Shown here piece after piece: positions 22,854 to 63,525 of a stretch of DNA of 64,000 nucleotides (its first letter is position 1; every line of letters begins with the position of its first letter). The notes under the pieces are model-generated. The model ran no database searches, was not told where the DNA came from, and saw only the letters and a program-made list of their open reading frames with translations. Source of the stretch: Antedon mediterranea (taxonomy: Eukaryota > Echinodermata > Crinoidea > Comatulida > Antedonidae); contig NC_092671.1 in assembly GCF_964355755.1 (NCBI RefSeq), positions 501,001-565,000 on the forward strand, written 5' to 3'. The translations under genes and the position numbers were made by a program.

Positions 22854-25800
22854 TTAAAACGTTTTTGCAATTGGAAGTGTATTATACTTCAAAGATACGC
22901 CCATGTGTATCAGATTATTTTGAAGCGTCTCGATATCTTTGTCTAGTTTGTTCAACCCCTCCTGGAAAATGTACTCATCTTGTGAAGTTACCGATGACAA
23001 TGTACTCTCAGTTATGTTACTTAAGTCTGTCAACTTAAAAGTGTTTATTGGTGAGGTCGAAGAAACAAGCAATCTATCAAGATGTGAATCAGTAAATGAG
23101 ACATGGGCTGGTCTCTTGTGCTGATGATCTTGTCTCTTATGTGCAAGATGGTCTAATAATGAGACATGGGCTGGTCTCTTGTGCTGATGATCTTGTCTCT
23201 TATGTGCAAGATGGTCTAATAATGAGACATGGGCTGGTCTCTTGTGCTGATGATCTTGTCTCTTATGTGCAAGATGGTCTAATAATGAGACATGGGCTGG
23301 TCTCTTGTGCTGATGATCTTGTCTCTTATGTGCAAGATGGTCTAATGTTGTATCCATAGGAAGTTCATACCCCACATGTGAAATACAACTTATGTGTTGT
23401 TCCTCATATTCATCTTTGTCTTCTTCAGCATGCATGCCATTGTAGTCTAAATCACCATGCAACAATTTGTCTCTATGTAATATTTCGTCTTGTGAATCAT
23501 AAGAACTTTCTAAAATCCAATCTTTTACATCGTGTGGAGGACTGACCTTGAGGTTAAGAGGTGCAGTTGATTCTAATGAAGTCATGTGAGGTATTTTAAA
23601 GTTTGGCATTTCTCTTATATCATCTGAAACAGATTCTCCTTGTGTTTGGTTAGCTAGACTATTTCTGGTTCCAAGTTTTTCTTTTGGGTTAGAATCAAAT
23701 GTCCTGAATTTCGGTAGTGGTTTTTTAAAGCGATCTGCCGCAGATGTGACTTCTGACATCTTTGGAACAGGATGTTTTACAGGACGCTCCTTTAGATCTC
23801 TTAGAAGCGACGATATTGTGTACTGCAAATTTCTGTTTAACAAATAAGATAATATAACCTAAAATGATTAGCTAGTAAACATAAAAAAGACAGTTTGAGC
23901 TCTGTCTACATTATCAAACTAGTTTGACAAAAAAGTTTTATGTGTTCATATATATGGTTGGTAGTAATATGATGTCATTTCACATATTTTTGTCACTTAA
24001 AGATATTGTAGACAGAGATTTATATCCAAATCTGTATCCAAAACAGATTTTGCCATTATATGGCTTTGGTAGTTTAATTGGCATGACCTACTCATTGATT
24101 TCTTTCATTCGTTTAATTTCTCCATCTCTCTGATTTATACACAAATCTTTAATGTTACATTCCTTCTTTTTTGCTTCCAGTTGAAGTTGTGTTGACTTGA
24201 GATCCAGTTTATTTTGACTAAGTTGTTTGTGTAATGTATCACACTCTTTCTGTAAGGCATCAGTCTTTGCCTGAATAAAGATAATGTTCTATCAAAGTTT
24301 TGAATCATGCATTTTTTAATAGACATCTTGTATCTAGTTACTGTCATGTTCAGCAGGGATATGGCCCAGAGGTTGCCCCAGAGCATAAGCAGCCCCAATG
24401 CAACTACCCATTGTTGAAAGGTCCCTTAGGTGTGCTAAATCAGAGGGTCCTTTGTGTTACGCCACTGGGGTAACACCACGCTCACGGTGTGCAACTAGCA
24501 ATTCTATATAATTTCGTTTCGTTTCGTTTCGTTTATTTATTTTTTCCACTCACTTATATATATATATATATATATCATTTACATTTCCATAATGGATGGA
24601 AGTCACAGTAAGTTCACTGAACTTTAAGTCGTGACTCCCGTATGCCTAAGTATACTAACATTGCTACAGAGTAGACTAAAATATGAATATATAATAGTGA
24701 AAGTACATAAAATAAAGAAATAAAAAAAATTTAAATTATAGAAGTTAAGATAAACCAGGCAATTATATAATATATGATAAAAGGGATAATGATAACAATT
24801 AGAGTACAATATGAAATATAATTAAATATGGTATAATAACAAGTATAACGATACAATGTAGCGGAGATTATTGAATACCAGGGTGAAGGATTTAATGCCA
24901 TGTATCACCACCAAATAAATAAGGATAAAAAATCGGCGAAAAATTATGTAGCATATTCTGACACCATTTTGTGTTTGAAATTAGATTTAAAACTAGAAAA
25001 GGAAGATTTCTGTTTAAGTTCATTTGAGAGTGAAGTCCAAAGTTTGGGACCAAAATAATACATAGAAAATCGTCGAGCCTTAACATTTAAATTATCAAGG
25101 ATATAATTGTTAACAGAGGATCGGGTTTTATAGGAATGGCGTTCGTCAATTCTTGTAAATAAAGCATTAAAATGTGAAGGCAGTAAATTGTTAGATAAAC
25201 GGTACATAAATGAGGCAACTTGTAATTTATTTAAATCATAAATGTTTAAAACGTTAAATCTTTTAAAAAGTAATTTTGTATGGGCTCTAAATGATTCTCC
25301 CGCGCAAATCCGAAGTGCACGTTTTTGTAGTTTAAAAAGGCGGTCAATTTGAGTTTTCTCTAGACTTGTCCAGGGGCATAACATATTAAATTTATCTAGA
25401 GTAATTGCCCAACATAAATTGGCATAAGAAAGGTAAGGCAAAACTAAAGTATTATAAAGGGTTAATAAGGTTTTTTGAGGGAAGATATGTTTTAATTTGT
25501 TCAATATTCCAACATTTCTAGAAACTAGATTACTGATTTTATTTATATGTAGTTTCCAAGTCAGAGAGGCATCTATGGTTACTCCTAAAAATTGTGTTTC
25601 ATTAACTCGTTTGATCATTTTATTATCAATGTATATTTGTTCATTTAAAGAATTTGAAATTTTACGTTTAGAAAATATTATATATTTGATTTGATTTGAT
25701 TTATTTCGGCATCAGTACATAAAATATCACAGACATACAATTAAAATTGACAAATATAAAAATACCAAAATAAAACAAGGATGCCAAGGATAACTCATAA

Positions 25801-28791
25801 AAGTCCTCTACGGACTTGTTTCCAATGAGGTCCTTATAGTTCGTTTTGAATGTATTAAGAGTTAATTTATTGTGTTTGAGCCAATTTGAAACTTTAAGTA
25901 ACTCATCATTGACAATTTTAAACAAGGTATTTAATTTAGGATGAAAGAAAAAAATATTTGTGTCGTCAGCAAATAAGATAAAATTTAGTAATTTAGAGCT
26001 GTTTGGTATATCGTTAACAAAAATCAGGAATAAGAGTGGTCCAAGAATCGATCCTTGGGGAACACCACAGGTTAAACGGGAATAGGAAGAGTTAAAATTA
26101 TTTAAGGAAGTAAACTGAACACGATTGGAAAGGTAGCTTTTAATTAGTTTTAAAGGAAGGCCTCTGATACCGTAATTTGAAAGTTTATGAATTAAAATAT
26201 CGTGGTTAATAGTATCGAAGGCCTTAGATAAATCAAGGAAAATGCCAACAGAAAACTCATTTTTACTCAGGGCAATTGTAATTTTGTCAAAAATATCTAA
26301 TAAAGCAAGATTGTTTTATACTGAATACTTTTTCCTGAAACCATATTGGCCTTTAAATAAAATGTTATGTTTAGTTAAAAAGGAAGAAATTCGATTATGC
26401 ATTATTTTTTCAATTAATTTTGAGAAACAAGGAAGTAGGGAGATTGGTCTGTAGTTATTGAAATGATGAGGATCTTCTTTCTTGTAGATAGGGATGACTT
26501 TAGCTATTTTAAAAGATTGTAAAATAATTGTACCATTTCTGCTTCTAGAACTTTTTAGTACCACATTTAAAACATTGATATCGCATCTACAAACGGTTTC
26601 TTACCATATTTTCTCCACTAGATACATCCTGTTCAGTTTTTGTTTCATCATTTTCTTTTTTCAGTTTATCTATGACCTTTGCAGCATCTTTAAGTTTGAT
26701 TTGTAGAACTTCTATGAATGCCTTTGAACTCAATACTAGATTTAGTTAGGAAATAAATCAAATTTTTGACTTCAATACAACAAAATCAGTACTGTGTATT
26801 TATAGTTAATTAAACGTCACATATTCTATTTATAACATGAAATTAGGAACCAAATTTCTTGAGTAACGAGATGTTGTGATATAGCCATGAAGCTATAGTA
26901 TTAAGTACATACTTACATTCCAAATTTGGATTATCTTGATCCTTCAATTGACTGTCTATATCTCGGATTCTCTGATTTGCAATTCGTAATTTGCGCCGCA
27001 GATGGCAATTCTCATTGCGGAGAGGTTGAAGAGCGAGCTCAGTCTCTGTGGATGTTGAAGGTGTCACGTTTGTAGAATAAGGAATTGTGTTTAATGTTTG
27101 ATCCATTTCACTCAACAATCGCTGGGTTTCAACATCACCTAACAGAAAGATAAGATTTAACTTTCAATGCCACATTAGAATACACAGACTTATATAGTAT
27201 ATTGCTATTAATTATAGATTTGATGCAAACTAAAGGGTCTTCACACCTGTTCCAGCAAATCAAACATCAATTTTCACGACGCTTCACATGGCTATGCGAC
27301 AATCGATATGCGCGTGGCCGTGTGAAAATGAAACATTGTCGTTTAAACGCTGGCGGACCCATGCCGCAACAGGTGTGAAAAACCCTTGAGTGTAGATTGT
27401 GGCACTGGTTTGACCCCATCCCTACTTATATAGTTAAGTACCAAACCCAGTATTAACAAAAATATAGAAACCTTACCATTATCTTGCAGTAATGCATGAA
27501 GTTCATTCAAAAGGTATTTAGCTGTTCTTATTTGATTTCCACAATGCTTTGCCGCAGTTGGAGGAGGAACGCTACACCCCCTACTAGACAAGTGTTGATC
27601 CCCATCATTTGTAGGCGTCAAATTCCCTTCATCATCTGTACCATTTTCTTCTACAGTATCGTCATCTTGTTTATAGTTTGACCTAATTGACTGTTGACTG
27701 TTTGGTTTGATCAAATCTTTGTTTTGGTTGTTAGACTGCTTCTTAGATTCTGTTACTGATGGTTTTAAAACAGTGCATGGGATGACCTTCTTTTTCTGCT
27801 TTAGCTTAGGATGCTTTTGTTGCTGTTTTCCTTGATGCTTGTTTGATACTTGCTGCTTTGCTTTAAGTCTGTTTTGTTTCTTTCCTTCTTGATTCTCATC
27901 AACCTCTTGTATATTACTCTGTGTTCCATGTACTTTATGCATCTTTTCTTGGGTTAAATTTTCATGCTTAGGTTTCTTAGTAGGAGTGGAAGTCACAAGA
28001 CGCCGGTGAAATGCAGTAACATCCTTCGAACCAACTTTATCTATTGATTTTTTCTCTTGTTTACTAATAATGCTTTTGTTTTTAGTGATGCCAGGTTGTT
28101 GACTGATCACATTGTTAGAATTGTATTTGCACTGAGAAAGAGATATTTCCCCTAAAAATAAAATATAATACAGTATACATATATATCAAATAAATACATC
28201 TTAATGAATGGTACTATTTTGTTTTTAATGTTTAAAATACTGTGCAATCATTTCATCTAAGTCTGATGTAAAACTAGACTTTGACCGATATAAAAGTGGA
28301 CATTGACGAATCTAAAACTCCACTTTGACCAATGTTACCTTCAAGAATGTTAGCAAGAAGAGCAGCACATCGGTCAAGTCCTTTGGTTGTCATGGAAACT
28401 TGATCCTCAGAGTCTGTTGAATATAGTGAATACCCTGGAGTAGTTTCTTGAACATCTCTTAATAAAGATGAGATATGAGAGTAGTTATTATTAATATTAT
28501 TTGTTAATGTTATACAGTATTGAAATAGTGTAAGCATAAACATATATTGGATACTTTTCTAATTTGTTGTCAAAAGTACTTACCTTCTGTTTTTAGGAAT
28601 TTTTTTAACAGCTAATCCTCTTGAGATCAGAGATTCTTTACTTGACTATATTAATATAAAATAGGCCCTAGTAAATATTTTATGAGAAATGCATATGAAA
28701 TGTATCATGTAGGCCTAATACATGTATTATTTAAAAATGGAATGATTAAATTCACCTTTGAGCCAGATGATTTCCTTGATGTTTTCTTCAT
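22854..28791 (-). CDS. CCDC14-like: CCDC14-like centriolar-satellite protein, 800 aa, complete
   Basis: Eight exons join in phase: 28756-28791 (ATG at 28791), 28584-28645, 28339-28457, 27477-28151, 26917-27138, 26605-26735, 24092-24270 and 22854-23832 (stop). The summed length is 2403 nt, exactly 801 codons. Near the N terminus GYSLYSTDSEDQ then GLDRCAALLANIL closely resembles the conserved N-terminal motif of CCDC14 as I recall it (GYS..SDSESQ..., GLD.CA.LL..IL). Then come a Lys/Gln-rich disordered region (about residues 110-200), coiled-coil segments (about 325-470), and a C-terminal region with four 21-residue repeats (about 637-720). CCDC14 is a centriolar-satellite protein linked to centriole duplication. 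The donor of exon 7 (GTAGGT) overlaps an apparent stop that splicing removes. A LINE and two MITEs sit in its introns. The orthology call rests on the short N-terminal motif and general architecture. Confidence 0.7.
23097..23348 (-). repeat. 63-bp coding minisatellite, 4 copies
   Basis: Four virtually identical 63-bp units inside the last exon of the CCDC14-like gene encode LDHLAHKRQDHQHKRPAHVS plus one residue, 21 aa each. The unit is a multiple of three, so copy number can change without frameshift. The basic, His-rich repeat has no recognised function. Confidence 0.95.
23896..24019. mobile_element. MITE family 1, copy 2
   Basis: Starts GAGCTCTGTCTACATTATCA; diverged internally, closing with ATTGTAGACAGAG. 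It lies in the last intron of the CCDC14-like gene, within 75 bases of the donor of exon 7. Confidence 0.75.
24517..26590 (-). mobile_element. Non-LTR retrotransposon (LINE), 5'-truncated, inactive, with nested insertion
   Basis: Reverse-strand translation gives an RT domain in order: KVIPIYKKEDPHHFNNYRPI, SLLPCFSKLIEK, YGFRKKYS, then an in-frame stop near 26314, DLSKAFDTINH, GVPQGSILGPLLF, FADDTNIF, and, beyond the insertion, TQFLGVTIDASLTWKLHI and a CR1/jockey-type C terminus ending KSNFKHKMVSEYAT near 24944. The catalytic FADD is intact. The 3' end carries (CGAAA)4 on the coding strand at 24517-24537. The endonuclease part is missing. The frame is broken by the stop and by the insertion at 25685-25835. 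It lies in the sixth intron of the CCDC14-like gene, same strand. Confidence 0.88.
25685..25835 (-). mobile_element. Short LINE 3'-end insertion nested in the LINE at 24517-26590
   Basis: Nearly identical over about 150 bases to 48296-48440, the 3' end of another LINE, including the TTTGATTTGATTTGAT tail and TTATTTCGGCATCAGTACAT. It is a 5'-truncated retrotransposed copy that interrupts the host LINE between TFKTNY and IIFSKRK. Confidence 0.75.
27232..27388. mobile_element. 157-bp MITE with TIR AAGGGTCTTCACACCTGTT
   Basis: Left end AAGGGTCTTCACACCTGTTC; right end CAACAGGTGTGAAAAACCCTT is the near reverse complement. The interior has inverted blocks (TCACACGGC, CATGGC). The AAGGG...TTCACACCTG end style suggests a hAT-type MITE, but no 8-bp duplication was confirmed. 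It lies in an intron of the CCDC14-like gene. Confidence 0.65.
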
Positions 28792-43989: not shown

Positions 43990-46900
43990 TACTGAGAAGG
44001 AATATTCCCTTAAAAAAGGTAAATAAATAAGAAAAAATGTAAATAAGAAGGAAAAAAGGTAAATAAGAAGGAAAAAAGGATAAATAAGAAGGAAAAAAGG
44101 ATAAATAAGAAGAAAAAAGGTAAATAAGAAGGAAAAAGGGATAAATAAGAAGAAAAAAGGTAAATAAGAAGGAAAAAAGGTAAATAAGAAGGAAAAAAAG
44201 ATAAATAAGAAGGAAAAAAGGATAAATAAGAAGGAAAAAAGGATAAATAAGAAGGAAAAAAGGGTAAATAAGAAGGAAAAAAGGTAAATAAGAAGGAAAA
44301 AAGGATAAATAAGAAGGAAAAAAGGATAAATAAGAAGGAAAAAAGGGTAAATAAGAAGGAAAAAAGGATAAATAAGAAGGAAAAAAGGTAAATAAGGAAA
44401 AAAGGTAAATAAGAAGGAAAAAAGGTAAATAAGAAGGAAAAAAGGATAAATAAGAAGGAAAAAAGGGTAAATAAGAAGGAAAAAAGGATAAATAAGAAGG
44501 AAAAAAGGTAAATAAGAAGGAAAAAGGGTAAATAAGAAGGAAAAAAGGATAAATAAGAAGGAAAAAAGGGTAAATAAGAAGGAAAAAAGGATAAATAAGA
44601 AGGAAAAAAGGATAAATAAGAAGGAAAAAAGGATAAATAAGGAAAAAAGGATAAATAAGAAGGAAAAAAGGGTAAATAAGAAGGAAAAAAGGATAAATAA
44701 GAAGGAAAAAGGGTAAATAAGAAGGAAAAAATGTAAATAAGAAGGAAAAAATGTAAATAAGAAGGAAAAAAGGTAAATAAGAAGGAAAAAAGGGTAAATA
44801 AGAAGGAAAAAAGGGTAAATAAGAAGGAAAAAAGTATAAATAGGAAGGAAAAAAGGATAAATAAGGAAAAAAGGATAAATAAGGAGAAAAAAAGGTAAAT
44901 AAGGAGAAAAAAAGGTAAATAAGGAAAAAAGGTAAATAAGAAGAAAAAAAGGGTAAATAAGAAGAATGTAAATAAGAAGGAAAAAATGTAAATAAGAAGG
45001 AAAAAAGGTAAAATAAGGAAAAAAAGGTAAATAAGAAGGAAAAAAGGGTAAATAAGAAGGAAAAAAGGGTAAATAAGAAGGAAAAAAGGATAAATAAGGA
45101 AAAAAGGATAAATAAGGAGAAAAAAAGGTAAATAAGAAGGAAAAAAGGGTAAATAAGAAAAAAAGGATAAATAAGAAGAATGTAAATAAGAAGGAAAAAA
45201 GGTAAATAAGGAAAAAAGGTAAAATAAGAAAAAAAGGTAAATAAGAAGGAAAAAAGGGTAAATAAGAAGGAAAAAAGGGTAAATAAGAAGAATGTAAATA
45301 AGAAGGAAAAAAGGTAAAATAAGGAAAAAAGGTAAAATAAGGAAAAAAGGTAAATAAGAAGGAAAAAAGGTAAAATAAGGAAAAAAGGTAAATAAGAAGG
45401 AAAAAAGGATAAATAAGAAGAATGTAAATAAGAAGGAAAAAAGGTAAATAAGGAAAAAAGGTAAATAAGAAGGAAAAAAGGATAAATAAGAAGGAAAAAA
45501 GGTAAAATAAGGAAAAAAGGTAAATAAGAAGGAAAAAAGGATAAATAAGAAGAATGTAAATAAGAAGGAAAAAAGGTAAAATAAGGAAAAAAGGTAAATA
45601 AGAAGGAAAAAAGGATAAATAAGAAGGAAAAAAGGTAAAATAAGGAAAAAAGGTAAATAAGAAGGAAAAAAGGATAAATAAGAAGAATGTAAATAAGAAG
45701 GAAAAAAGGTAAATAAGGAAAAAAGGTAAAATAAGGAAAAAAGGTAAATAAGAAGGAAAAAAGGGTAAATAAGAAGGAAAAAAGGGTAAATAAGAAGAAT
45801 GTAAATAAGAAGGAAAAAAGGTAAATAAGGAAAAAAGGTAAAATAAGGAAAAAAGGTAAATAAGAAAAAAAGGGTAAATAAGAAGGAAAAAAGGGTAAAT
45901 AAGAAGAATGTAAATAAGAAGGAAAAAAGGTAAAATAAGGAAAAAAGGTAAATAAGAAGGAAAAAAGGATAAATAAGAAGGAAAAAAGGTAAAATAAGGA
46001 AAGAAGGTAAATAAGAAAAAAAGGTAAATAAGAAAGATGATACACAGATTTATGTGTCAGTAAATCCAGTGCAAAGGGATGTTGCTGCAGCAATCAGTAA
46101 GATGGAAGCCTGTATAGAAGATGTTCGCAATTGGATGACAACAAATTACCTAAAGTTGAATGATGGAAAGACAGAGTTTATTATCGTCGGGTCTAAATGT
46201 AACATCTCCAAAATCAACATCACACATATCAGAATCGGAAACTCTAACATCGCTCCCTCATCGGTGGTCCGGAATCTGGGAATCATGCTGGATAGTAATC
46301 TCACTATGGAAGCACAAATAACAACTGTATCCAAAGCAGCATGCATATCGATTAGGAACCTTGGTCGTATTCGCGGTAATCTTAACAAGAAAACAGCTGA
46401 ATTGATTGTACACTCATTTGTCACTTCTAAAATTGACATTGGTAATGCCTTGTTGTTTGGCATACCAAAATCTCAAATACAACGTTTGCAGCGCTTGCAA
46501 AATATGGCAGCTAGAATTGTAACTTATACAAAATCAAACGCTCACATAACTCCTGTCCTGATGGATTTGCATTGGTTGCCTGTTCAACAACGTATTAAGT
46601 ACAAACTTGCGTTGTTTGTATTCAAGATCCTAAATGACAGTGCTCCTGCTTATTTATCTGACCTTGTGGATCGTTACGAATCATCCCGCAGAGGCCTACG
46701 ATCATTGTCACAAAACCTTCTTCAAGAGCGTAGAGCGAAAAATCAGTGGGGTCAGAGATCTTTTTACGTTGCGGCCGCAAGTGTATGGAACAGCTTACCA
46801 GCAACAGTTAAATGCTCAACTAGTCTAAACAGTTTCAAGACCAACCTAAAGACGTCGCTATTCGCTGATGTTCTCGCACGTTGTTAATGCACAAAGCGCC

Positions 46901-47375
46901 ATGAGCGCCACATGGGTGGAGGATACCGGCGCTATATAAGTTTTCATTTATTATTATTATTATTATTATTAAATAAGAAGGAAAAAAGGGTAAATAAGAA
47001 GAATGTAAATAAGAAGGAAAAAAGGATAAATAAGAAGAATGTAAATAAGAAGGAAAAAAGGTAAAATAAGGAAAAAAGGTAAATAATAAGGAAAAAAGGT
47101 AAATAAGAAGGAAAAAAGGGTAAATAAGAAGGAAAAAAAGGTAAATAAGGAAAAAAGGGTAAATAAGAAGGAAAAAAGGGTAAATAAGAAGGAAAAAAAG
47201 GTAAATAAGGAAAAAAGGTAAAATAAGGAAAAAAGGTAAATAAGAAGGAAAAAAGGTAAATAAGAAGGAAAAAGGTAAATAAGAAGAATGTAAATAAGAA
47301 GGAAAAAAGGATAAATAAGAAGAATAAGAGTAAATAAGAAAAAAAGGTAAATAAGAAGAAAAAAGGTAAATAAGA
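43990..47375. repeat. Purine-rich satellite, 12-21-bp units, about 2.4 kb plus 0.4 kb
   Basis: Units of the form GGAAAAAAGGATAAATAAGA with variants (GGTAAAATAA, AAGAATGTAAAT). Higher-order blocks appear in the right half, where an AAGAATGTAAATAAGAAGG marker recurs. Strong strand asymmetry: almost no C on the plus strand. A LINE at 46036-46975 splits the array. Confidence 0.95.
46036..46975 (+). mobile_element. LINE 3' fragment (RT from the YADD motif to the C terminus)
   Basis: Open frame 46036-46887. It starts exactly at DDTQIYVSVNP, the end of the FADD/YADD catalytic box, then WMTTNYLKLNDGKTEFIIVG, GNALLFGIPKSQIQRLQRLQ, HWLPVQQRIKYKLALFVFKI and VWNSLPATVKCSTSLNSFKT. This is the CR1/L2-type C terminus. 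The 3' UTR ends GGCGCTATATAAGTTTTCAT plus (ATT)n. AAATAAGAA occurs on both sides and may be the target duplication, though it is also the satellite unit. The frame is uninterrupted, so the insertion looks recent. Confidence 0.88.
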
Positions 47376-48295: not shown

Positions 48296-49556
48296 TTTGA
48301 TTTGATTTATTTCGGCATCAGTACATAAAATATCACAGACATACAATTAAAATTGGCAAATATAAAAATACCAATATAAAACAAGGATGCCAAGGAAAAC
48401 TCATAAAAGTCCTCTACGGACTTGTTTCCAATGAGGTCCTTTGAAAGAACAGCAAAAAAAGACAAACAAAGCAACATAATAAAAATTACAAAAAACAGCA
48501 AAAAGGACAATCGAAAAAAGAAGAAGCGCTAATTAAATAGTTTCTAGAGCTAGTGAACGTTCCTGTAGATACTTTTTAACTTTACTTTTAAAACAACAAA
48601 CAGTTTGTGATTCCTTAATGTTAATTGGTAAATTATTCCATTCTTTAATAGCATTGTAAAAAAAGGTCACATGTGCCATTGGCTTGATAGTTGGGATTCT
48701 AAAATTAAAATTGCATCCCCTAGTATTGTAATTATGACTGTCTGAAATTCTAATAAAACGATTGCATAAATAAGGTGGACAACAATGATTATATATTTTA
48801 AAAACATGACAGACTCTAAGAAATTCGACACGGTCTTGGACTTTTAACATACCAACGTCGTTTAGCTGAGATTGACCAACATGAGATCGGGGACCTAACT
48901 TTTTTATAAAACGAACCATTTTGTTTTGAGTCGTTTGTAAATTTGATTTTAAATTTTTATTTACCGTAGAAGACCATGAGCAAACCGAATAATCGAACAT
49001 CGGTTGGATTAAAGCAAAACTAAGAATTTTGCGACAATGTGAATTAAGAAATGATGATTGTCGGTACAGAAATTTCAGTCTGCCGTTTGCTTTGTTTATA
49101 ACAGAGCGGGCAATGACGTCACCTGATACATTTTGGTCAATCTCAATACCTAGATATTTGATAGATTTTGATCCATTTATAGTCGTTCCAAAGCAATCAA
49201 TATAGAATTCGTTTACTTTGCTTAATCTACGTTTAGAACCAAACAGGATGCATTCGGTCTTACCCATATGAAGCGAAAGTTGATTGTCGATCAGCCAATT
49301 ATTGCATGATACAAGATTGTTTTGGAGTTTAGATTGGATTGCGATTGGATCTTTATGGGAGTAAAAAATTGCACAATCGTCAGCGTACAAAACAACTTTA
49401 CAATCACTTTCGATACTAGATGGTAGGTCATTCACGTAAATAAGAAACAAGAGAGGACCCAAAAGGCTACCCTGGGGGACTCCACATCCAATCTCAATAG
49501 AGTTCGATTTGGTACCTTTAATATCGACAATCTGATTTCGCCCAGACAGGTCCTAG
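48296..49556 (-). mobile_element. LINE, 5'-truncated, with intact C-terminal RT frame
   Basis: Minus-strand open frame from about 49556 to 48533: SGRNQIVDIKGTKSNSIEIG, CGVPQGSLLGPLLFLIYVND, LYADDCAIFYSHKD (catalytic YADD), SIKYLGIEIDQNV, FNFRIPTIKPMAHVTF and EWNNLPINIKES. The 3' UTR (48441-48532) and the 48296-48440 end with (TCAAA)n tail match the nested insertion at 25685-25835. The endonuclease and N-terminal RT parts are missing. It is a different family from the LINE at 46036. Confidence 0.88.
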
Positions 49557-51929: not shown

Positions 51930-54900
51930 TTAATTCTCTGTGTAGGCTGGAGGAGGATCCATGGGCTGGTTACCAAGGGCAACATGTATAAGATCCGGTG
52001 GTAAGCCAGCATACTTCTCATCCAGTTGATCAATTGGCACCTTCTCATCTATACCACCTCCAATTGCTCCAATCGTTGAATAGCCTGGATTCTCCACACC
52101 AACATCACCCTCAATACCAGACTAAAAAGATAAACAAATTCTGATTAAAATAACTGTAACATCTTCATTTAAACAGATTTAAAGATATAAATAGATTCTC
52201 TACAACATTGTACCAATGACTTCTAGCAAATCAATATGATAGAACAAGTAAAATAAAATAACTGAAGTTTTAAAACTAACCACAGAATTAATATTTGCAA
52301 CATTTGGTCCTGTTCTGTAGGATACTGCACCAGTAGATTCTCTTTTCCTATAAATAAATGAATATATACATTTTAAAATCCAAAGGCAAATTACTGAAAA
52401 AATGACAATGCTGTGGGTATCAGTGGCTGGATCTCAATGGAGATACAAAAAAAAAAAAAATAAAGAGCTAAATCAAAACAATAGAGTAAAACAGCCAGAA
52501 AAAATTTTCATTTGCATTTTAAATATATTAAATTTATTTTTAAGGTAAAAAATTACACACCACAGTCAGAGTGGGAGAACAACTATCACTACTAAAAATA
52601 ATACTACCTTATTAAAACAAAATGTACTAACCTCCTTTTTAGTCTGAGTAAGACAAATAATACTATACCACAGTCAGAGTGGGAGAACAACTATCATTAC
52701 TAAAAATAATACTACCTTATTAAAACAAAATGTACTAACCTCCTTTTTAGTCTGAGTAAGACAAATAATACAATACCACAGTCAGAGTGGGAGAACAACT
52801 ATCATTACTAAAAATAATACTACCTTATTAAAACAAAATGTACTAACCTCCTTTTTAGTCTGAGTAAGACAAATAATACAATACCACAGTCAGAGTGGGA
52901 GAACAACTATCACTACTAAAAATAATACTACCTTATTAAAACAAAATGTACTAACCTCCTTTTTAGTCTGAGTAAGACAAATAATACAATACCACAGTCA
53001 GAGTGGGAGAACAACTATCACTACTAAAAATAATACTACCTTATTAAAACAAAATGTACTAACCTCCTTTTTAGTCTGAGTAAGACAAATAATACAATAC
53101 CACAGTCAGAGTGGGAGAACAACTATCACTACTAAAAATAATACTACCTTATTAAAACAAAATGTACTAACCTCCTTTTTAGTCTGAGTAAGACAAATAA
53201 TACTATACCACAGTCAGAGTGGGAGAACAACTATCATTACTAAAAATAATACTACCTTATTAAAACAAAATGTACTAACCTCCTTTTTAGTCTGAGTAAG
53301 ACAAATAATACAATACCACAGTCAGAGTGGGAGAACAACTATCACTACTAAAAATAATACTACCTTATTAAAACAAAATGTACTAACCTCCTTTTTAGTC
53401 TGAGTAAGACAAATAATACAATACCACAGTCAGAGTGGGAGAACAACTATCATTACTAAAAATAATACTACCTTATTAAAACAAAATGTACTAACCTCCT
53501 TTTTAGTCTGAGTAAGACAAATAATACAATACCACAGTCAGAGTGGGAGAACAACTATCACTACTAAAAATAATACTACCTTATTAAAACAAAATGTACT
53601 AACCTCCTTTTTAGTCTGAGTAAGACAAATAATACAATACCACAGTCAGATTGGGAGAACAACTATCATTACTAAAAATAATACTACCTTATTAAAACAA
53701 AATGTACTAACCTCCTTTTTAGTCTGAGTAAGACAAATAATACTATACAGACAATAATGATGACTGACAACGCTAAAAGACCAGCCATAATCGGTACAAG
53801 ATCTGGAAAAACAAACAAATGTGTAAAGATATGAATGTACAGAGATGTTGATGTTTGTGGAATTCTATTGAATGTGTGTATTAGTATACATGGTTCAATG
53901 AAGTGTCTTAAGTCTGTCTACACTATCAAACATTATGTGAAAAAACAATGTGATGTGCCCACATATGGACTCGATGATGTCATATTACTACCATATTTGG
54001 GTACATCACAAACAGTTTGATAGTGTAGACAGATCTTAAGACTTTGCAAAAGTTGATTACCCTTCTAGTGCTTTTTCAATTCAATTTATTGTCCCAATAT
54101 AAAGTTCCCGTATTTTTCTGCTCACATAAATAAGTATAATTTTTTTTCAAAATCATGATTTGTAATTTTTCGCTGAACTTACTAGAAACTTCATCATCCT
54201 CACCACCTGTTGATTGGGCAGAACAAAAACTCTTTTCAGATCCATCTGAACACCTAGAAAAGAGATTTATATTTATTTATTTCTATTTATTCAAATCCGA
54301 TACCAAATAAGTGTGTATCATAGAAGTGAAGGGGTGCATTAATCATTACAAGTAGACTTCTCCAATAAATATATAAATGAAAACTTGTTTGAATTGTGAA
54401 TTCACTAATATTCACCCAATACCGTACTTAGTGAAATTCCATGGTAAACATTAATAGTTTAACTTACTTGCAGAAACCGTTTTCGGTACAAACACCATCA
54501 CCACAATCACATGATGCTAAACATTATAAAATACATATGTATAAGTTTAATGTTTAATACATGATAATAATGCTAATAATAACTGTAGCTTGGTGCCAGC
54601 TTTTTAATCACATCACGCTGGGTTCAGTCTTTTAACCAAATGGCTGTTTTTTTTCATGAAAAAAAAAACAGCCATTTGATCAGAAGATATCCTAATCAAT
54701 TTGGACATTGACAGTCACAAGAAATACAAAATACTAAGCTATTTGTATCAAATATAAACTGACCCTTTTTATGTTCACAATTGGTACCATCAAAGTCGTT
54801 GGTGCAGAAGCAAGTATATCCAGACACACTTACTGTACACGTTCCACCATTCAAACAAGGTCGGCCATTGCATTCATAATATCCTACACAAATCACAAAT

Positions 54901-57900
54901 ACAAATTGATTAAATTTACATCTCCCACTACACATAAATATTACAAATTACGAACAGTGATATGCCACCACAGTGTTATTGCACAAAATAGTCAAATATA
55001 ACTTTTACTAGTTTGTGTTTTCCTGAAAATAATAATAATAGAGAGTTGTTTTGCATTCTTAACTCACACCCTTCAGATGAGAACTTAAGCAGTCTGTAAG
55101 TGTTCATTGCAAAAAAATAACATTACCCTTCTGACATGTTTTTTCATCAATAAATCCATAGCCATCTGGGCAAGCACATTGGTAGTCGAGGTCATCGCTC
55201 CCTTTAGGAATGATGAGGCAAAGATGGCTGCAGGGATGGTTGTCACATGGATTGGAAACTGAAAATACAGGATATAAGGTTTGTTAGATGTTGAATAGAA
55301 CAATTCCAAATGTATCATATCATGGAATATGTGCAAGCCAGTTATTGTGTGTCTACACTTGGCTTGTCATGTTGTAAAAAAACAACCACTATTAAATACA
55401 TATATATATATTTGACAAAATTATTTGTAAAATATTCTTAAATTTTACTATATAAAATTAGGCAAAATGCAATGGAAAGGGAACTCAAAATATGCAAATA
55501 AGATTTGAAATGAAATCAATATACAACAGTACATACATGGAGGATATCTTTCACTGTGGAACATTTTCAGGGCTGCATGTCGACCAATATCAGAAACTAA
55601 TGATTCCATTCCATTACTCTTTATCTTGTCTCCTACTAAAATGTTACCGTTATCTTTTGTAGAGCTTGTTGACCAATAAAAGTTACTTCCAAATACTTCT
55701 ATTTGGTATGGATTCAATAATGACTCTGTGAAAAAACAAAAACAATGTAATGTTTGTATGTGAATTAGTGGTTCTAGGAGGTTACAATGTCCACACGACT
55801 AGAAGTTATAAAGAAGCTGGTATTTTTTACAATAAGAAGTTATACGTGTTATAATTCTAAAAACGTCGTCTCTTTCAAATTTATACCCAAATTTAGTTTT
55901 GAAAATAATCACCTCCGCCTTTGACAGCTCTGAGATTGCTACCATCAAAGTTCATTGAGAAAATCAAATTCTCCTTGCGGTCAGAAAAATATACGGTTTG
56001 ATAGTTGGCAAAATCAATGGTCAGTCCAGTAGGCTCAATGAGATCCCTGGTTACAAGTTCTTCACGATGTTCTCCCGTCATCCAAGCTACTTCAATTTTT
56101 GGGAATTCTCCTTGATCAGTCCAATATATCAATCTACAAATATTATAATAACATTTTATGAGGGTGCTTGATGTATGAAAGAATTGGTAGTGTGGGTTAC
56201 AAATCTGTGATTTACTGTACATGCCTACTCGGTGTAATGGTATATTGAAACCTGTGTGGGTTACAAATCTGTGATTTACTGTACATGCCTACTCGGTGTA
56301 ATGGTATATTGAAACCTGTGTGGGTTACAAATCTGTGATTTACTGTACATGCCTACTCGGTGTAATGGTATATTGAAACCTGTGTGGGTTACAAATCTGT
56401 GATTTACTGTACATGCCTACTCGGTGTAATGGTATATTGAAACCTGTGTGGGTTACAAATCTGTGATTTACTGTACATGCCTACTCGGTGTAATGGTATA
56501 TTGAAACCTGTGTGGGTTACAAATCTGTGATTTACTGTACATGCCTACTCGGTGTAATGGTATATTGAAACCTGTGTGGGTTACAAATCTGTGATTTACT
56601 GTACATGCCTATTCGGTGTAATGGTATATTGAAACCTGTGTGGGTTACAAATCTGTGATTTACTGTACATGCCTACTCGGTGTAATGGTATATTGAAACC
56701 TGTGTGGGTTACAAATCTGTGATTTACTGTACATGCCTACTCGGTGTAATGGTATATTGAAACCTGTGTGGGTTACAAATCTGTGATTTACTGTACATGC
56801 CTACTCGGTGTAATGGTATATTGAAACCTGTGTGGGTTACAAATCTGTGATTTACTGTACATGCCTACTCGGTGTAATGGTATATTGAAACCTGTGTGGG
56901 TTACAAATCTGTGATTTACTGTACATGCCTACTCGGTGTAATGGTATATTGAAACCTGTGTGGGTTACAAATCTGTGATTTACTGTACATGCCTATTCGG
57001 TGTAATGGTATATTGAAACCTGTGTGGGTTACAAATCTGTGATTTACTGTACATGCCTACTCGGTGTAATGGTATATTGAAACCTGTGTGGGTTACAAAT
57101 CTGTGATTTACTGTACATGCCTACTCGGTGTAATGGTATATTGAAACCTGTGTGGGTTACAAATCTGTGATTTACTGTACATGCCTACTCGGTGTAATGG
57201 TATATTGAAACCTGTGTGGGTTACAAATCTGTGATTTACTGTACATGCCTACTCGGTGTAATGGTATATTGAAACCTGTGTGGGTTACAAATCTGTGATT
57301 TACTGTACATGCCTATTCGGTGTAATGGTATATTGAAACCTGTGTGGGTTACAAATCTGTGATTTACTGTACATGCCTACTCGGTGTAATGGTATATTGA
57401 AACCTGTGTGGGTTACAAATCTGTGATTTACTGTACATGCCTACTCGGTGTAATGGTATATTGAAACCTGTGTGGGTTACAAATCTGTGATTTACTGTAC
57501 ATGCCTACTCGGTGTAATGGTATATTGAAACCTGTGTGGGTTACAAATCTGTGATTTACTGTACATGCCTACTCGGTGTAATGGTATATTGAAACCTGTG
57601 TGGGTTACAAATCTGTGATTTACTGTACATGCCTACTCGGTGTAATGGTATATTGAAACCTGTGTGGGTTACAAATCTGTGATTTACTGTACATGCCTAC
57701 TCGGTGTAATGGTATATTGAAACCTGTGTGGGTTACAAATCTGTGATTTACTGTACATGCCTACTGTGGTGTAATGGTATATTGAAACCTGTGTGGGTTA
57801 CAAATCTGTGATTTACTGTACATGCCTACTGTGGTATAATGGTATATTGAAACCTGTGTGGGTTACAAATCTGTGATTTACTGTACATGCCTACTGTGGT

Positions 57901-60900
57901 GTAATGGTATATTGAAACCTGTGTGGGTTACAAATCTGTGATTTACTGTACATGCCTACTGTGGTGTAATGGTATATTGAAACCTGTGTGGGTTACAAAT
58001 CTGTGATTTACTGTACATGCCTACTGTGGTGTAATGGTATATTGAAACCTGTGTGGGTTACAAATCTGTGATTTACTGTACATGCCTACTGTGGTATAAT
58101 GGTATATTGAAACCTGCTCTAAAGTGAGATGTTACTTTAGGGTTCCATTTTGTTAAGAAACAATTATTTCATATGACATAAAGATATTTATTTATAATTA
58201 AAAAATTCTTGAAGTTGAAATAAGTAAATGAACTTGAGTGTTTATCTTACCCTTTTGCTGGATTCACCACAATAGAGAAAGGTTTATCAAGATCTTTGTC
58301 AATAAGAATTCTTGCATTTTGTCCATCACTATTAGCAACAGTGATACTTGGGTCGGAGGACAAAGCACGACGTCTACGTCCATCAAACAGATTTTGATCT
58401 CCCCAGTCAGTCCAGTAAATGTTTCTGAAGGAAATATTGAATTGCTTTTTCTATAAATATTTTGTGCACAAAATGTCATTTTTAAAAATAAATGTCACCC
58501 TTTGCACTAAATGTCATTGTTTGCATTAATGTCATTTTTTAATGTCATACTAACCCAGCGACCCAATCACATGTTATTCCTCTTGGTTGTTTTAAATCCC
58601 TCTGAATTTCTTGCAAAGCACCCTCATTTGAACCTCCTAATACAGCTCGTTTGATTTCAAATTCTTGTGAATCAATCCAATATACGTAATCTAAATTAAC
58701 AATGAAAGATTTATTATAATTAATTGATTTGTTATAATTTATTTAATGCACTGGCTTATTTCCATTGAAATTACACCAATTATTATTTATATTATAAACT
58801 TGAAAAAAAAGTGATGTGCCCTTATATAGACATGATGATGTCATATGACTACCAAATTTGGGCATATCACTACCATATTTGGGAACATTACACTTTTTTT
58901 GTCAAACTAATTGGATAGTGTAGACAGAGCTTTATACTGGTTGGACAGCTTTGAAAGTTCATGCCCACCTCTTCCCAGTAAAATTAAATCCATGTGATAT
59001 CAATGATTTTCAACCTACTGTTTTGAACATCCACATCCAAGTCTTCAATTCTCCCTTGTTCTTTTATAAATACATCAACATTTTTAGTTGAGAAATAGTA
59101 GCGTTTTATTGTAGGTCCATCAGAAAAGATAAGGTATTCATTTCCATCTGAAAAAAACCCAATAAGGTGAGGTAAATGCATATGTCAGTCAATGACGGCC
59201 TGATGTTCTGAGGACGGTTAACAAAACAGGTAACGCTAAAGCGAAACCTACCTTCTGTTTGGCAATCTCTTCCATCCCCAAAAATGTCAAAGTACCCTCG
59301 TGCACATTCACATGTGTAGTTACCTTTGGTGTTCACACATACCTGGGGACAAGGGTTGTCATTGCACTCATTGTAATCTAAGAAAAGAAATAATAGGCTT
59401 TGATAAAAATGTTATTGAGTATGGTTGTCAATCTTCAAATGCTTTCTTATGCTCTGCTTTATAGTAGAACCAAAAAAATAACAATTTTATAATCAAAGAT
59501 AATCTTTTTTGCAATAAACCAATCAAAAGATGTGTTATAAATAATAACTAACCAGCACAGCTGAACTGATCAACCTGGCTGAGTGTATAGCCTTCTCCAC
59601 ATGAACAAGCAAAACCATACTCCAAGTCTGTGCAAACTCTCTCACACATTGCTGCACCAGTCACGCATTCATTTACATTTTCATCTTCTTTATCTACAAA
59701 AGAAAAGATAAATCTGTACATTATCAAACTAGTTTGACAAAAAAAAAGTGTGATGTGCCTAAATTTGGCAGTGATATGCCCAAATATGGTAGTGATATGA
59801 CATCATCATGTCCATATATGTACACATCACATTTTGTTGTCACATAGTTTGATAGTGTAGACAGAGCTTAAAAGCTAGGCTAAAATTAAATCAAGAATAT
59901 TTATTCTTCTGTATTATATTTCATTGTGAATTGTTATAGCATGACATAATATGACATGACATGACATAATATGACTTGACATGACATAATATCATAAAGT
60001 CCATCAGTTTTATTAACAAACCATAGCATTGTAATAGGTTCAGTCACCAGTTATAATACTGAAACTGATGTGTCCAAGATGTAGGTTTAATAGTGCAATG
60101 AATAATTTGTTTTTAAAATGAGATGATTCACTTACGGCAACCATGCTCATCAGAATTGTCGTTACAATCATCAAAGCCGTTGCAAAGTTTGGTGACAGGC
60201 ACACAGATTGAGTTCTCACATTTGAATTCATCATATTTACACAATTCTGGCTGAGGTGTACCTAAACAATACAAATTAAACATTTAATAAAAATAAACGA
60301 GTTCTTATAATATAGCGCCGAATTCCAATGAATCTTGCTCATGGCGCTGTGGACTCAGATGTTACACTTTTCAATTACATATGTCTCCCCTAAGGGTCAC
60401 GTCACGTCCTCTCTAAGGCGCTCTCTCATCTGTCCACGACACAGTGGTTGTGTGTTAACTAGTACACCGGGGTAATTCCCTACTCATCTTGAAAGATGTA
60501 CTAGGTTCTTTAAAGTGCACACGAGCAATGTGTGTACACTGGACTTACTAGTAATAGTTCGCTGGTAAGAACAAGTTGTTTCTCTTTTTGCCTTATAAAA
60601 TTAAATAAATAAAAGTTGACTTACAAGATTTGTCAGTTTCATCAGAACTGTCTGGACAGTCTTGATATCCGTTACACATTAAAAAACTGTGTATGCAGAT
60701 AGTTGTTGAATTACACTGAAATTTATTTTCAGGACACGCACCTAAAAAAACATAATTGTAGCACATAATCTACAGCAACTTTCTATGACATTATAGCTTG
60801 TTGTAGTATGTATTTTTGTGTAGTATGAATTTAACAATAAAGTGATATACTGTATAATAACTCTCCCAAAACTGGACACTCTAGCCTGGTTTCAGAATGT

Positions 60901-63525
60901 ATCTTAAATAGAAAGAATTGGGCCTTTGGAACTTCTGGTTTTGGTAGAGTTTTTGGGAAGTCTTGGTATAATATAAAATACCATATGTTAATGCAAGTTT
61001 ATACCTATTTGGTAAAATGATTCAGATACGTTTAAATAAATAACAAACAATATTCTCAAACAGCTGGGACTTTGAGATTACACTCAAGTATCAAATGAGT
61101 TAAAATTCACCCTACGATATCTTTATGTACACTAGAGAGTGGTGAATCCAGGATTTTGAAATAGGGGAAGGGGGTGGGGGGTTAGCAGGGCCTAAAAGAG
61201 AAGTATAATAGAAACCAGAAATTTTATTGGATCTGATATAAAACTTACCACAATTTAGTTCATCACTACCATCTCCACAGTCATCCTGACCATCGCATTC
61301 ATAGTCTTTTGGAACACAAACATTGTTCCTGCAGCTCAATTCATCCTCTTTACAGTTTCTGTCATCTATAAATAAAGTACTTGGTTAGGCCAACACGAAA
61401 CTCATCGAGCAACTCAACACAACTGATCATGAAGTAACACAAAACAAAATGTGCAGCCAGGAAGGCAGTGTCGCACATGTTAAAAGTAGTGTTTTAGTTC
61501 CAATACAAATTTGAAAATAAACTTACTACAACCGTCAGTTTCATCATCCCAATGGTAACAGTCAGGGAACCCATCACATCGGTAATCCTCAGGAATACAA
61601 TGACCTGAAGTACACTGGTATTCTCCTACATCACATCTAGGTTCATCTTAAGATATAAAAACAACTTGCTTTGTAAACTTTCTGTATACAGTCAACTCAA
61701 ACAAGATTGATAATTCTGAATTTCTAATATAACTTAAGACTATTTAAATGCAAATAGATGTGTATAATATATATTATAGCAAGCATTAATTGGTATACTG
61801 TGCTGTTTAATTCTAGATATCATGTGCAAAAAAAAAGAAATGAGATTGAACAGGTGTCTACAATATGAAACTGCAAAAACATCTTTGAAAAATACCATAT
61901 GTCTAAATGTATGTCTACACTATCAAACATTATGTTACAAAAAATGTGATGTACCCATATATAGACATGATGATGTCATATCACTACCATATTTGAGCAT
62001 ATCACTACCATATTTGGGCACATCACACTTTTGTTTTAGTGTAGACTGAGCTTAAGTCTTTATATAGAATTTAAAACTATATTTACTTACTGCATTTAAA
62101 TTCATCTGATCCATCATTACAGTCAACAGTTATATCACAGATTTTATACCAAGGAATGCATTTCCCAGAAGTACATCGATGCTCACTCTCACTACAGGGT
62201 CTATATGCTGAAGAGATGATTTAAACATCAAAATATCAATAAGTATTTATTTATTTTCAGTCACATTCAACAGTGGGAAACCTGCCACTAATAGAAAGGA
62301 TTAAAAATATTTAAAACTATATAACATATAATAACATATTATAAAAACTTTAAACAATTTAATGTATCTTATTACAAAAATATTGATCAAAAAGGGTCAA
62401 TGGAATTATCTTTTTCAATACAATTATTAAAAAGTAAACTGATACGAGAAATAAATCCATTTTTTGTAGAATTGAAACGGCAAAAGGGAACAGATAAAAG
62501 ATTACATTTATAATAAATGTACAGTACTTGTGCACCTTTTCAATAATAAACTAAATTTGCTAAAGAGGGTGTATTGCTCATTTTTTTTAACATGCTTAAC
62601 TGCCTATCAATAAAAAAAAACAAAGAACTAATAGCATATAGTTCACAACTGTATTTTCTTTGTATTAAGGAGTGCATGAGAAAAACATGAGAAACACATA
62701 CACTGTGTTAAGCTCTGTCTACACTATCAAACTTTATGTGAGAAAAAAATGTAATGTGCCCAATATGGACATGATGATGTCATATCACTACCATATTTAA
62801 GCATATCACTACAATATATGGGCACATCAGACTAATTTGATAGTGTAGTCAGAGCTTTAGGGGTTGTTGGCAGGTATTCACTTACTAGAACATGATGATT
62901 CATCGGAATAGTCTCCACAATCATTATCAAAATCACATCGCCATCGTAGCGGGATACATTTTTTATTATTACAGCGGAATTCACCTGGGCTGCATGTTCT
63001 ATCTCCTAAACAACATAATCAAATATTACAATTATGTTTCATGTATATCAAATAAAATCACTTTATTTCGTCCTCAATTGGAAAATATTTTGAGTGTATT
63101 TCATAGTATAGTACATACAAATATTTAAAACATTTGGTTAAAAGATATTAAAATACTTATATTTTGTAATTTTAATAAATTCTAGCCAATCATAAGATTT
63201 GTATTCTGGAATTTAAATGCATGTTAGCCAACAATAGAGTTGTATTTGTTCATATTGTACTGTACATATACTAATAAATCTAAAGGTGCTTTGTTATTGT
63301 TGTACATTTTAGCTAACAAACAAAGAGTATCTGTTCATGTGAAAGTGTTAAGATTAATGTCAATCTCATTTATATTCTAATTAAGTTAACACTAACGGCA
63401 AAGACTATAGAATTCATCTGATCCCCCTGTGCGACACTGGTTCAATCCATCACACACGGCATACTCTGGTATGCAGCGATAGTTATTGAGGCATGAATAC
63501 CAACCAGTGGGACATGTCACACTTT
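51930..63525 (-). CDS. LDL-receptor-related protein, C-terminal 893 aa (continues past right edge)
   Basis: 21 exons join in phase: 63397-63525, 62886-63005, 62091-62207, 61527-61646, 61249-61365, 60625-60741, 60136-60261, 59553-59693, 59252-59377, 59019-59147, 58555-58690, 58251-58424, 55913-56133, 55537-55725, 55127-55258, 54764-54883, 54468-54516, 54183-54253, 53712-53802, 52281-52347 and 51930-52121. The first seven each encode one LDL-receptor class A module ([16 protein letters not shown] type, with calcium-binding acidic residues; the outermost is degenerate). Then two EGF modules, a six-bladed YWTD-type propeller ([22 protein letters not shown]), two EGF modules ([14 protein letters not shown]), a short Cys-rich linker, one membrane helix ([20 protein letters not shown]) and a cytoplasmic tail with ENPGYS (NPxY endocytosis signal) and PPPAY (WW-domain ligand). 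An endocytic receptor of the LRP1/LRP2/VLDLR superfamily; the exact subfamily needs the missing N-terminal part. Confidence 0.93.
52555..53745 (-). repeat. 108-bp tandem array copying the end of the LRP transmembrane exon and its splice donor
   Basis: CAGTCAGAGTGGGAGAACAA recurs at exactly 108-bp intervals, 11 times from 52563 to 53643, with very few differences. Every unit includes, on the minus strand, GTATTATTTGTCTTACTCAG then ACTAAAAAGGAG|GTTAGT, the last 32 bases of the exon and the donor. Only the copy nearest 53712 is attached to the rest of the exon. Confidence 0.95.
53908..54040. mobile_element. MITE family 1, copy 7
   Basis: CTTAAGTCTGTCTACACTAT to ATAGTGTAGACAGATCTTAAG; both termini extended by TTAAG. 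LRP intron. Confidence 0.85.
54637..54678. repeat. Inverted repeat, CAAATGGCTGTTTTTTTT with complement
   Basis: 18-bp arms around a CATG centre in an LRP intron; would form a stable hairpin in the transcript. Confidence 0.8.
56188..58115. repeat. 64-bp satellite, about 30 copies, in an LRP intron
   Basis: TGTGGGTTACAAATCTGTGA recurs every 64 bp with almost no variation. Three units read CTATTCGG instead of CTACTCGG, and the last six (towards 58115) have CTACTGTGG with one extra base. No spacers, so not a CRISPR array. It separates two exons of the YWTD propeller. Confidence 0.97.
58796..58934. mobile_element. MITE family 1, copy 8
   Basis: Left terminus lost; GTGATGTGCCC..ATGATGATGTCAT and right end GATAGTGTAGACAGAGCTTT present. 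LRP intron. Confidence 0.75.
59711..59872. mobile_element. MITE family 1, copy 9
   Basis: CTGTACATTATCAAACTAGT to TTTGATAGTGTAGACAGAGC; near full length with the ATGACATCATCATGTCCATA core. LRP intron. Confidence 0.85.
60303..60600 (-). mobile_element. SINE-like element sharing the LINE 3' tail
   Basis: Read on the minus strand, the 3' end is AGCGCCATGAGC..GGAATTCGGCGCTATAT..TAAG, which matches the 3' UTR of the LINE at 46036 (AGCGCCATGAGC...CGGCGCTATATAAG). The body (AGTGTACACACATTGCTCGT, GGGAATTACCCCGGTGTACT) is unrelated to that LINE and no clear Pol III boxes were found. LRP intron. Confidence 0.65.
61135..61195. repeat. G-rich dispersed repeat fragment
   Basis: GTGGTGAATCCAGGATTTTG then AAATAGGGGAAGGGGGTGGG. 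Relatives: GTGGTGGACCCAGGACTTTT at 33239 (inside the foldback element) and GGTGGAGGGCATTTCCAGGA at 18831. Confidence 0.55.
61912..62055. mobile_element. MITE family 1, copy 10
   Basis: GTATGTCTACACTATCAAAC to TTTTAGTGTAGACTGAGCTT. LRP intron, 36 bases from the donor of the exon at 62091. Confidence 0.8.
62708..62860. mobile_element. MITE family 1, copy 11
   Basis: TTAAGCTCTGTCTACACTAT to TTTGATAGTGTAGTCAGAGC. LRP intron, 26 bases from the donor of the exon at 62886. Confidence 0.85.

Follow-up and report, generated by a model that had tools for sequence, protein, structure and literature searches.

A 108-bp tandem array carrying copies of a splice donor at the membrane-helix exon of an LRP2/megalin-type receptor gene

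What becomes of a receptor transcript when the end of its membrane-helix exon, splice donor included, is repeated into the intron that follows? In this work, we addressed this question at a locus lying in a window of 64,000 nucleotides (the whole stretch of DNA analysed), where an exon of an LRP2/megalin-type gene runs into an array of 108-bp units. The array is, in our judgement, probably a recently expanded minisatellite of the exon-intron border, which would behave as passive intron and be removed by splicing from the first donor.

The host gene and its membrane-helix exon

Exons were placed between AG and GT with matching phases. The resulting gene model and the repeated features of the intron after exon 19 are the following.

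51930..63525, minus strand: C-terminal 21 exons of an LRP2/megalin-type gene (gene model; the gene extends beyond the window)
53712..53802, minus strand: exon 19, membrane helix, 91 nt, phase 1 in and phase 2 out (one-open-frame model)
52348..53711, minus strand: intron of 1,364 nt with 10 extra donor copies (gene model)
52559..53748, minus strand: 108-bp tandem array, 11.0 copies (TRF: 98 % matches, no indels, head-to-tail)
52632..53615, minus strand: ten potential 12-nt microexons ACTAAAAAGGAG, encoding RLKR (acceptor and donor scores, translations)
52375..52502, minus strand: dispersed repeat of about 130-150 bp, between the array and the exon-20 acceptor
52281..52347, minus strand: exon 20, juxtamembrane tail (gene model)
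51930..52121, minus strand: exon 21, remaining tail with NPGY, C-terminal PPPAY and stop codon (gene model)

The joined frame comprises 894 codons (893 residues and the stop) without internal stop, and the modelled domains succeed one another as seven LDL-receptor class A (LDL-A) domains, two EGF domains, a YWTD propeller, two EGF domains, the membrane helix and the tail. Pfam retrieved the seven LDL-A domains, YWTD repeats and EGF domains from the modelled protein. The closest solved structures were LRP2 chains, aligned from residue 3684 to residue 4412 of about 4,660, and matches to LRP2 reached 1,723 bits as against 710 bits for LRP4, in a comparison made without full-length LRP1. The order LDL-A cluster, EGF, YWTD propeller, EGF, membrane helix and NPxY tail is that of LRP2-type receptors. 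The LRP2 matches and the single frame running through the 21 exons bear out the original prediction of an LRP membrane-helix exon at this place. Additional LDL-A and YWTD exons were located on the same strand just outside the window (C2:566809-572210), outside the gene model. A search of solved structures with the membrane helix and tail alone gave no match, and a search for a paralogue having the same tail and lacking the array returned weak matches only (E 0.13 or worse).

The acceptor of exon 19 ranks among the strongest of the gene, and its real donor lies at 53712/53711 (GGAG/GTTAGT; slashes mark boundaries throughout). The end of this exon at 53712 and the start of exon 20, both in phase 2, join in frame into the NPGY tail. 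An exon end outside the repeat was also considered and found no support, since no other end than the phase-2 one at 53712 continues in frame into exon 20 of the model. The other modelled exons measure 49-221 nt and the shortest intron 104 nt.

Structure and origin of the array

The array announced at the 3' end of the transmembrane exon is real, and its first unit does start within the membrane-helix exon, at 53746, 35 nt inside the exon ending at 53712; the eleventh ends at 52559. The donor AAAAAGGAG/GTTAGT is copied exactly, being identical in all 11 units with an exact spacing of 108 bp (53712 for the real one, then 53604, 53496, 53388, 53280, 53172, 53064, 52956, 52848, 52740 and 52632). 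There are thus 10 extra donors, and the figure of about 11 further copies first put forward is reached only when the real donor is included. When the whole 354-Mb genome was searched, the unit matched this array only, which rules out a dispersed origin. Variation among the 11 units is confined to 3 of 108 sites (mean pairwise difference 1.1 %), in agreement with the recent expansion or homogenisation that had been proposed. Taken together, the exact periodicity of the donors, the restriction of the unit to this locus and the small number of variable sites exclude chance.

The borders of the array were read from the sequence. The exon side reads ...GTCTGT/ATAGTATT and the array end ...CTGTGGT/GTGTAA. 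Where one unit meets the next, the version that looks most ancient (on entering units 6 and 11) is ...CTGTGGT/ATAGTATT. These junctions indicate a founding duplication in which 73 bases of intron became linked to 35 bases of exon at a 2-bp (GT) microhomology. The mixed exonic and intronic composition attributed to the unit therefore stands, but not the lengths of 32 coding and about 76 intronic bases, which must be replaced by 35 and 73 on the basis of the ancestral junction TATAG; the former values arose because most units carry TATTG instead at their start. Units 1, 6 and 11, i.e. every fifth unit, have TATAG at their start, which suggests that a block of five units was duplicated; together with the presence of only three variable sites, this distribution points to block duplication and recent homogenisation. 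The order of events that we infer would be as follows: 108 bp across the 3' border of the membrane-helix exon would have been tandemly duplicated at the GT microhomology; expansion, in part by five-unit blocks, and homogenisation would then have brought the array to its 11 copies, most units having presumably gained TATTG after the founding duplication.

The window holds many long tandem arrays (TRF). In 54 sampled LRP-type loci (GC content of about 33 %), tandem arrays represent about 7 % by length, coding LDL-A repeats included, and within the exons of these loci coding LDL-A repeats are the only arrays. As minisatellites are so common in this genome, one boundary-spanning array is not unexpected; no clear second one was detected among 114 exon hits in the 54 loci. 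In another LRP-type gene (locus L046, C2 at about 395 kb), a 47-bp array (356-813) starts 6 nt downstream of an LDL-A exon donor, and its units carry GTG/GTATTG where the real donor is GTG/GTAAGT. It may be a decayed boundary array, a relative of the same process.

Further repeats were recorded in the window. The dispersed repeat at 52375-52502 is present in at least 38 other genomic places, the best copies being 94 % identical; it is separate from the array and accounts for the many genome-wide matches obtained with the whole intron. A second strong acceptor-like site, at 52393, lies within this repeat and would lead into a TAG before exon 20. In the same LRP2-type gene, the intron between exons 12 and 13 contains 30 copies of a 64-bp unit (56190-58116, 99 % matched), which have no 12-mer in common with the exons of the gene. 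Elsewhere, a minus-strand open frame of 334 codons includes four identical 63-bp repeats (23095-23346) encoding four identical repeats of 21 residues (LDHLAHKRQDHQHKRPAHVSL). Open frames of reverse-transcriptase type (VPQGSxLGPLLF, FADD/YADD) at 24947-26600 and 48536-49552 are apparently remnants of non-LTR retrotransposons, and long 20-21-bp arrays (AAAAAAGGTAAATAAGAAGG) at 44012-46034 and 46970-47375 lie on either side of a retrotransposon-like open frame (46015-46884).

Splice signals within the units and predicted outcomes

The original prediction saw no acceptor between the repeated donors. On the contrary, every unit contains an acceptor, GTATTATTTGTCTTACTCAG/A, 12 bases upstream of the donor, the layout being GTATTATTTGTCTTACTCAG/ACTAAAAAGGAG/GTTAGT with a branch-like CTGAC about 30 nt before the AG in units 2-11. 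Acceptors were scored with a position-weight model built from 29 real sites (the acceptors of the gene and those of harvested LDL-A exons) with leave-one-out scoring. The CAG acceptor of the array scored 8.4, at the 62nd percentile of these sites (median 7.0); with a model from 21 acceptor sites alone, it scored 7.8 within a range of 3.3-11.9 for real sites. The array donor outscores 76 % of 33 real donors. Equally strong acceptor sites number 61 on the same strand in the remaining 62.8 kb of the window, and an acceptor-like tract in the unit is unsurprising since helix-coding DNA is pyrimidine-rich.

Because this acceptor lies 12 nt before the donor, each extra unit is a potential in-frame microexon of 12 nt, the first at 53604-53615 and the last at 52632-52643, in steps of 108 bp. 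When translated with 1, 2 or 10 units inserted, the frame gains one RLKR per unit and stays open as far as the normal stop, with the tail kept. Read-through of the first donor does meet a TAG, as had been claimed, at the ninth full intronic codon (RLVHFVLIR, then stop) and not within the first ones. The choice had been presented as one between strict use of the first donor and truncation of the receptor. A tail-less product is indeed expected from extension to later donors, but the in-frame cassettes make three splice outcomes and not two, and the receptor is predicted to be truncated in only one of them, in which the exon runs on to one of donors 2-11.

Under first-donor splicing, the first copy would stay the real end of the exon and the other ten units would be intronic; normal splicing would join donor 53712 to acceptor 52347, thereby removing the array and yielding a full receptor with its NPGY tail. 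We favour this outcome because of the 91-nt exon that the first donor gives behind a strong acceptor, the great length of the alternatives (307-1171 nt for exons ending at donors 3-11), the skipping to which microexons are prone and the amphioxus precedent discussed below. Counting against it, donors 2-11 are identical to donor 1 in sequence and exonic context, and the acceptors of the array match real ones in strength. The main argument against it is that the last donor (52632) lies just 284 nt from the exon-20 acceptor, an intron length commoner in this gene than 1,364 nt.

It is rather unlikely, though the best of the alternatives, that at least part of the transcripts include units as 12-nt microexons, singly or in series, with RLKR added by each and the tail kept in frame. 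The signals needed are all present in the units (CTGAC, a CAG acceptor scoring above the real median and a strong donor 12 nt on), the resulting translations are open, and the introns from each donor to the next acceptor would measure 96 nt, near the shortest of the gene. However, an in-frame status has one chance in three of arising, the pyrimidine-rich helix-coding DNA makes the acceptor-like tract little surprising, and exons as short as 12 nt are usually skipped without dedicated enhancers. Tandem repeats at human exon-intron borders can create novel introns (PMC2812944), and a new intron arose in potato from a duplicated splice border (PMC4974935), both of which speak for such use. If microexons were included, copy number would set the possible length of a basic juxtamembrane stretch. 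That the array is a working reservoir of this kind, with stepwise 96-nt splicing, a variable number of RLKR and copy number tuning the juxtamembrane length, we regard as improbable.

Frequent use of the later donors, which would give extended exons with a TAG soon after the helix and hence tail-less receptors or NMD targets, appears quite improbable. Ten donors are identical to the real one, each with its copied exonic context, and extension to donor 2 or beyond places the stop at least 80 nt before the next junction, a distance that makes NMD likely. Such use would nevertheless damage a receptor of essential type, the exons would be very long from donor 3 onward, and amphioxus arrays with duplicated splice sites are reported to yield no aberrant mRNAs (PMC3902484). 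Finally, a false expansion of one or two copies during assembly is highly improbable: near-identical units are difficult for assemblers, and for one amphioxus array a draft genome gave an aberrant assembly (PMC3087553), but here internal variants (A/G at unit site 77, A/T at site 2) mark the units in a non-trivial order, long reads easily span 1.2 kb and the 18 contigs (354 Mb) amount to a chromosome-scale assembly.

Comparison with known border minisatellites

First-donor splicing has its closest precedent in the amphioxus "mirages", minisatellites at exon-intron borders that are reported to leave regular splicing undisturbed (PMC3087553; PMC3902484). In BflGb9 it is likewise a 3' exon boundary that is duplicated, and mirages have been put forward as an origin of new introns (PMC3087553); in lancelet PGBD5, tandem repeats of 60 and 108 bp extend over splice sites (PMC3902484). 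The array described here spans the exon-intron boundary, from 35 nt inside the exon, carries the boundary donor in 11 of 11 units and is specific to its host gene, the unit matching a single locus. It fits, on these sequence features, the structural definition of a mirage. Instability of copy number between alleles or cells is a further trait of mirages, and the 11 copies counted here come from one assembly. To our knowledge, mirages have so far been named only in cephalochordates, which concerns their distribution and not their definition.

Border-spanning tandem copies with splice signals are common to the LRP2-type array and to the mirages of Adh3, BflGb6, BflGb9, TnC and PGBD5. The repetition of a 3' boundary is shared with BflGb9, the length of 108 bp with a unit of PGBD5, and near-identical units with differing end units with mirages in general. 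In contrast, copies number 3-6 in BflGb6 and 11 here, the host is an LRP2-type gene, carried by a bilaterian genome (about 33 % GC) that probably does not belong to a lancelet, and the units also form in-frame cassettes (acceptor, 12 nt, donor). The bilaterian origin follows from a let-7 precursor that scores above the family threshold and contains the mature sequence, let-7 being a bilaterian microRNA. The GC content, to be compared with about 41 % in Branchiostoma, and a GFP search without match speak against a lancelet, and a search for the insect cuticle family without match speaks against an arthropod, although a missing match in this genome does not prove absence; searches for cox1 and GH6 gave no match either.

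The human 6-16/IFI6 minisatellite reportedly provides multiple splice donor sites (cited as Turri et al. 1995, NAR 23:1854). There too the units carry donors at an exon end; however, they are short (12 bp) and their donors alternatively used, whereas the units here measure 108 bp and their ten extra donors are candidate sites. In the potato RdRp gene, an intron was gained when an intron-exon border was duplicated in tandem (PMC4974935), and internal tandem repeats at human exon-intron boundaries can generate novel introns (PMC2812944). As here, the duplicated border supplies ready-made signals, but those introns come with transcript evidence while the present array offers a potential.

Border arrays of duplicated splice sites are thus a known phenomenon, of which the LRP2-type array would be a further example, most likely spliced out harmlessly. 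It apparently widens the range of boundary-spanning minisatellites with duplicated splice sites to include a further animal genome and a large receptor gene. In such an array, whole acceptor-exon-donor cassettes can arise in a single step, which has been proposed as a way of gaining new introns and microexons. With 11 identical donors placed 108 nt apart in identical exonic context, the array also offers a natural setting for testing how the spliceosome selects among them.
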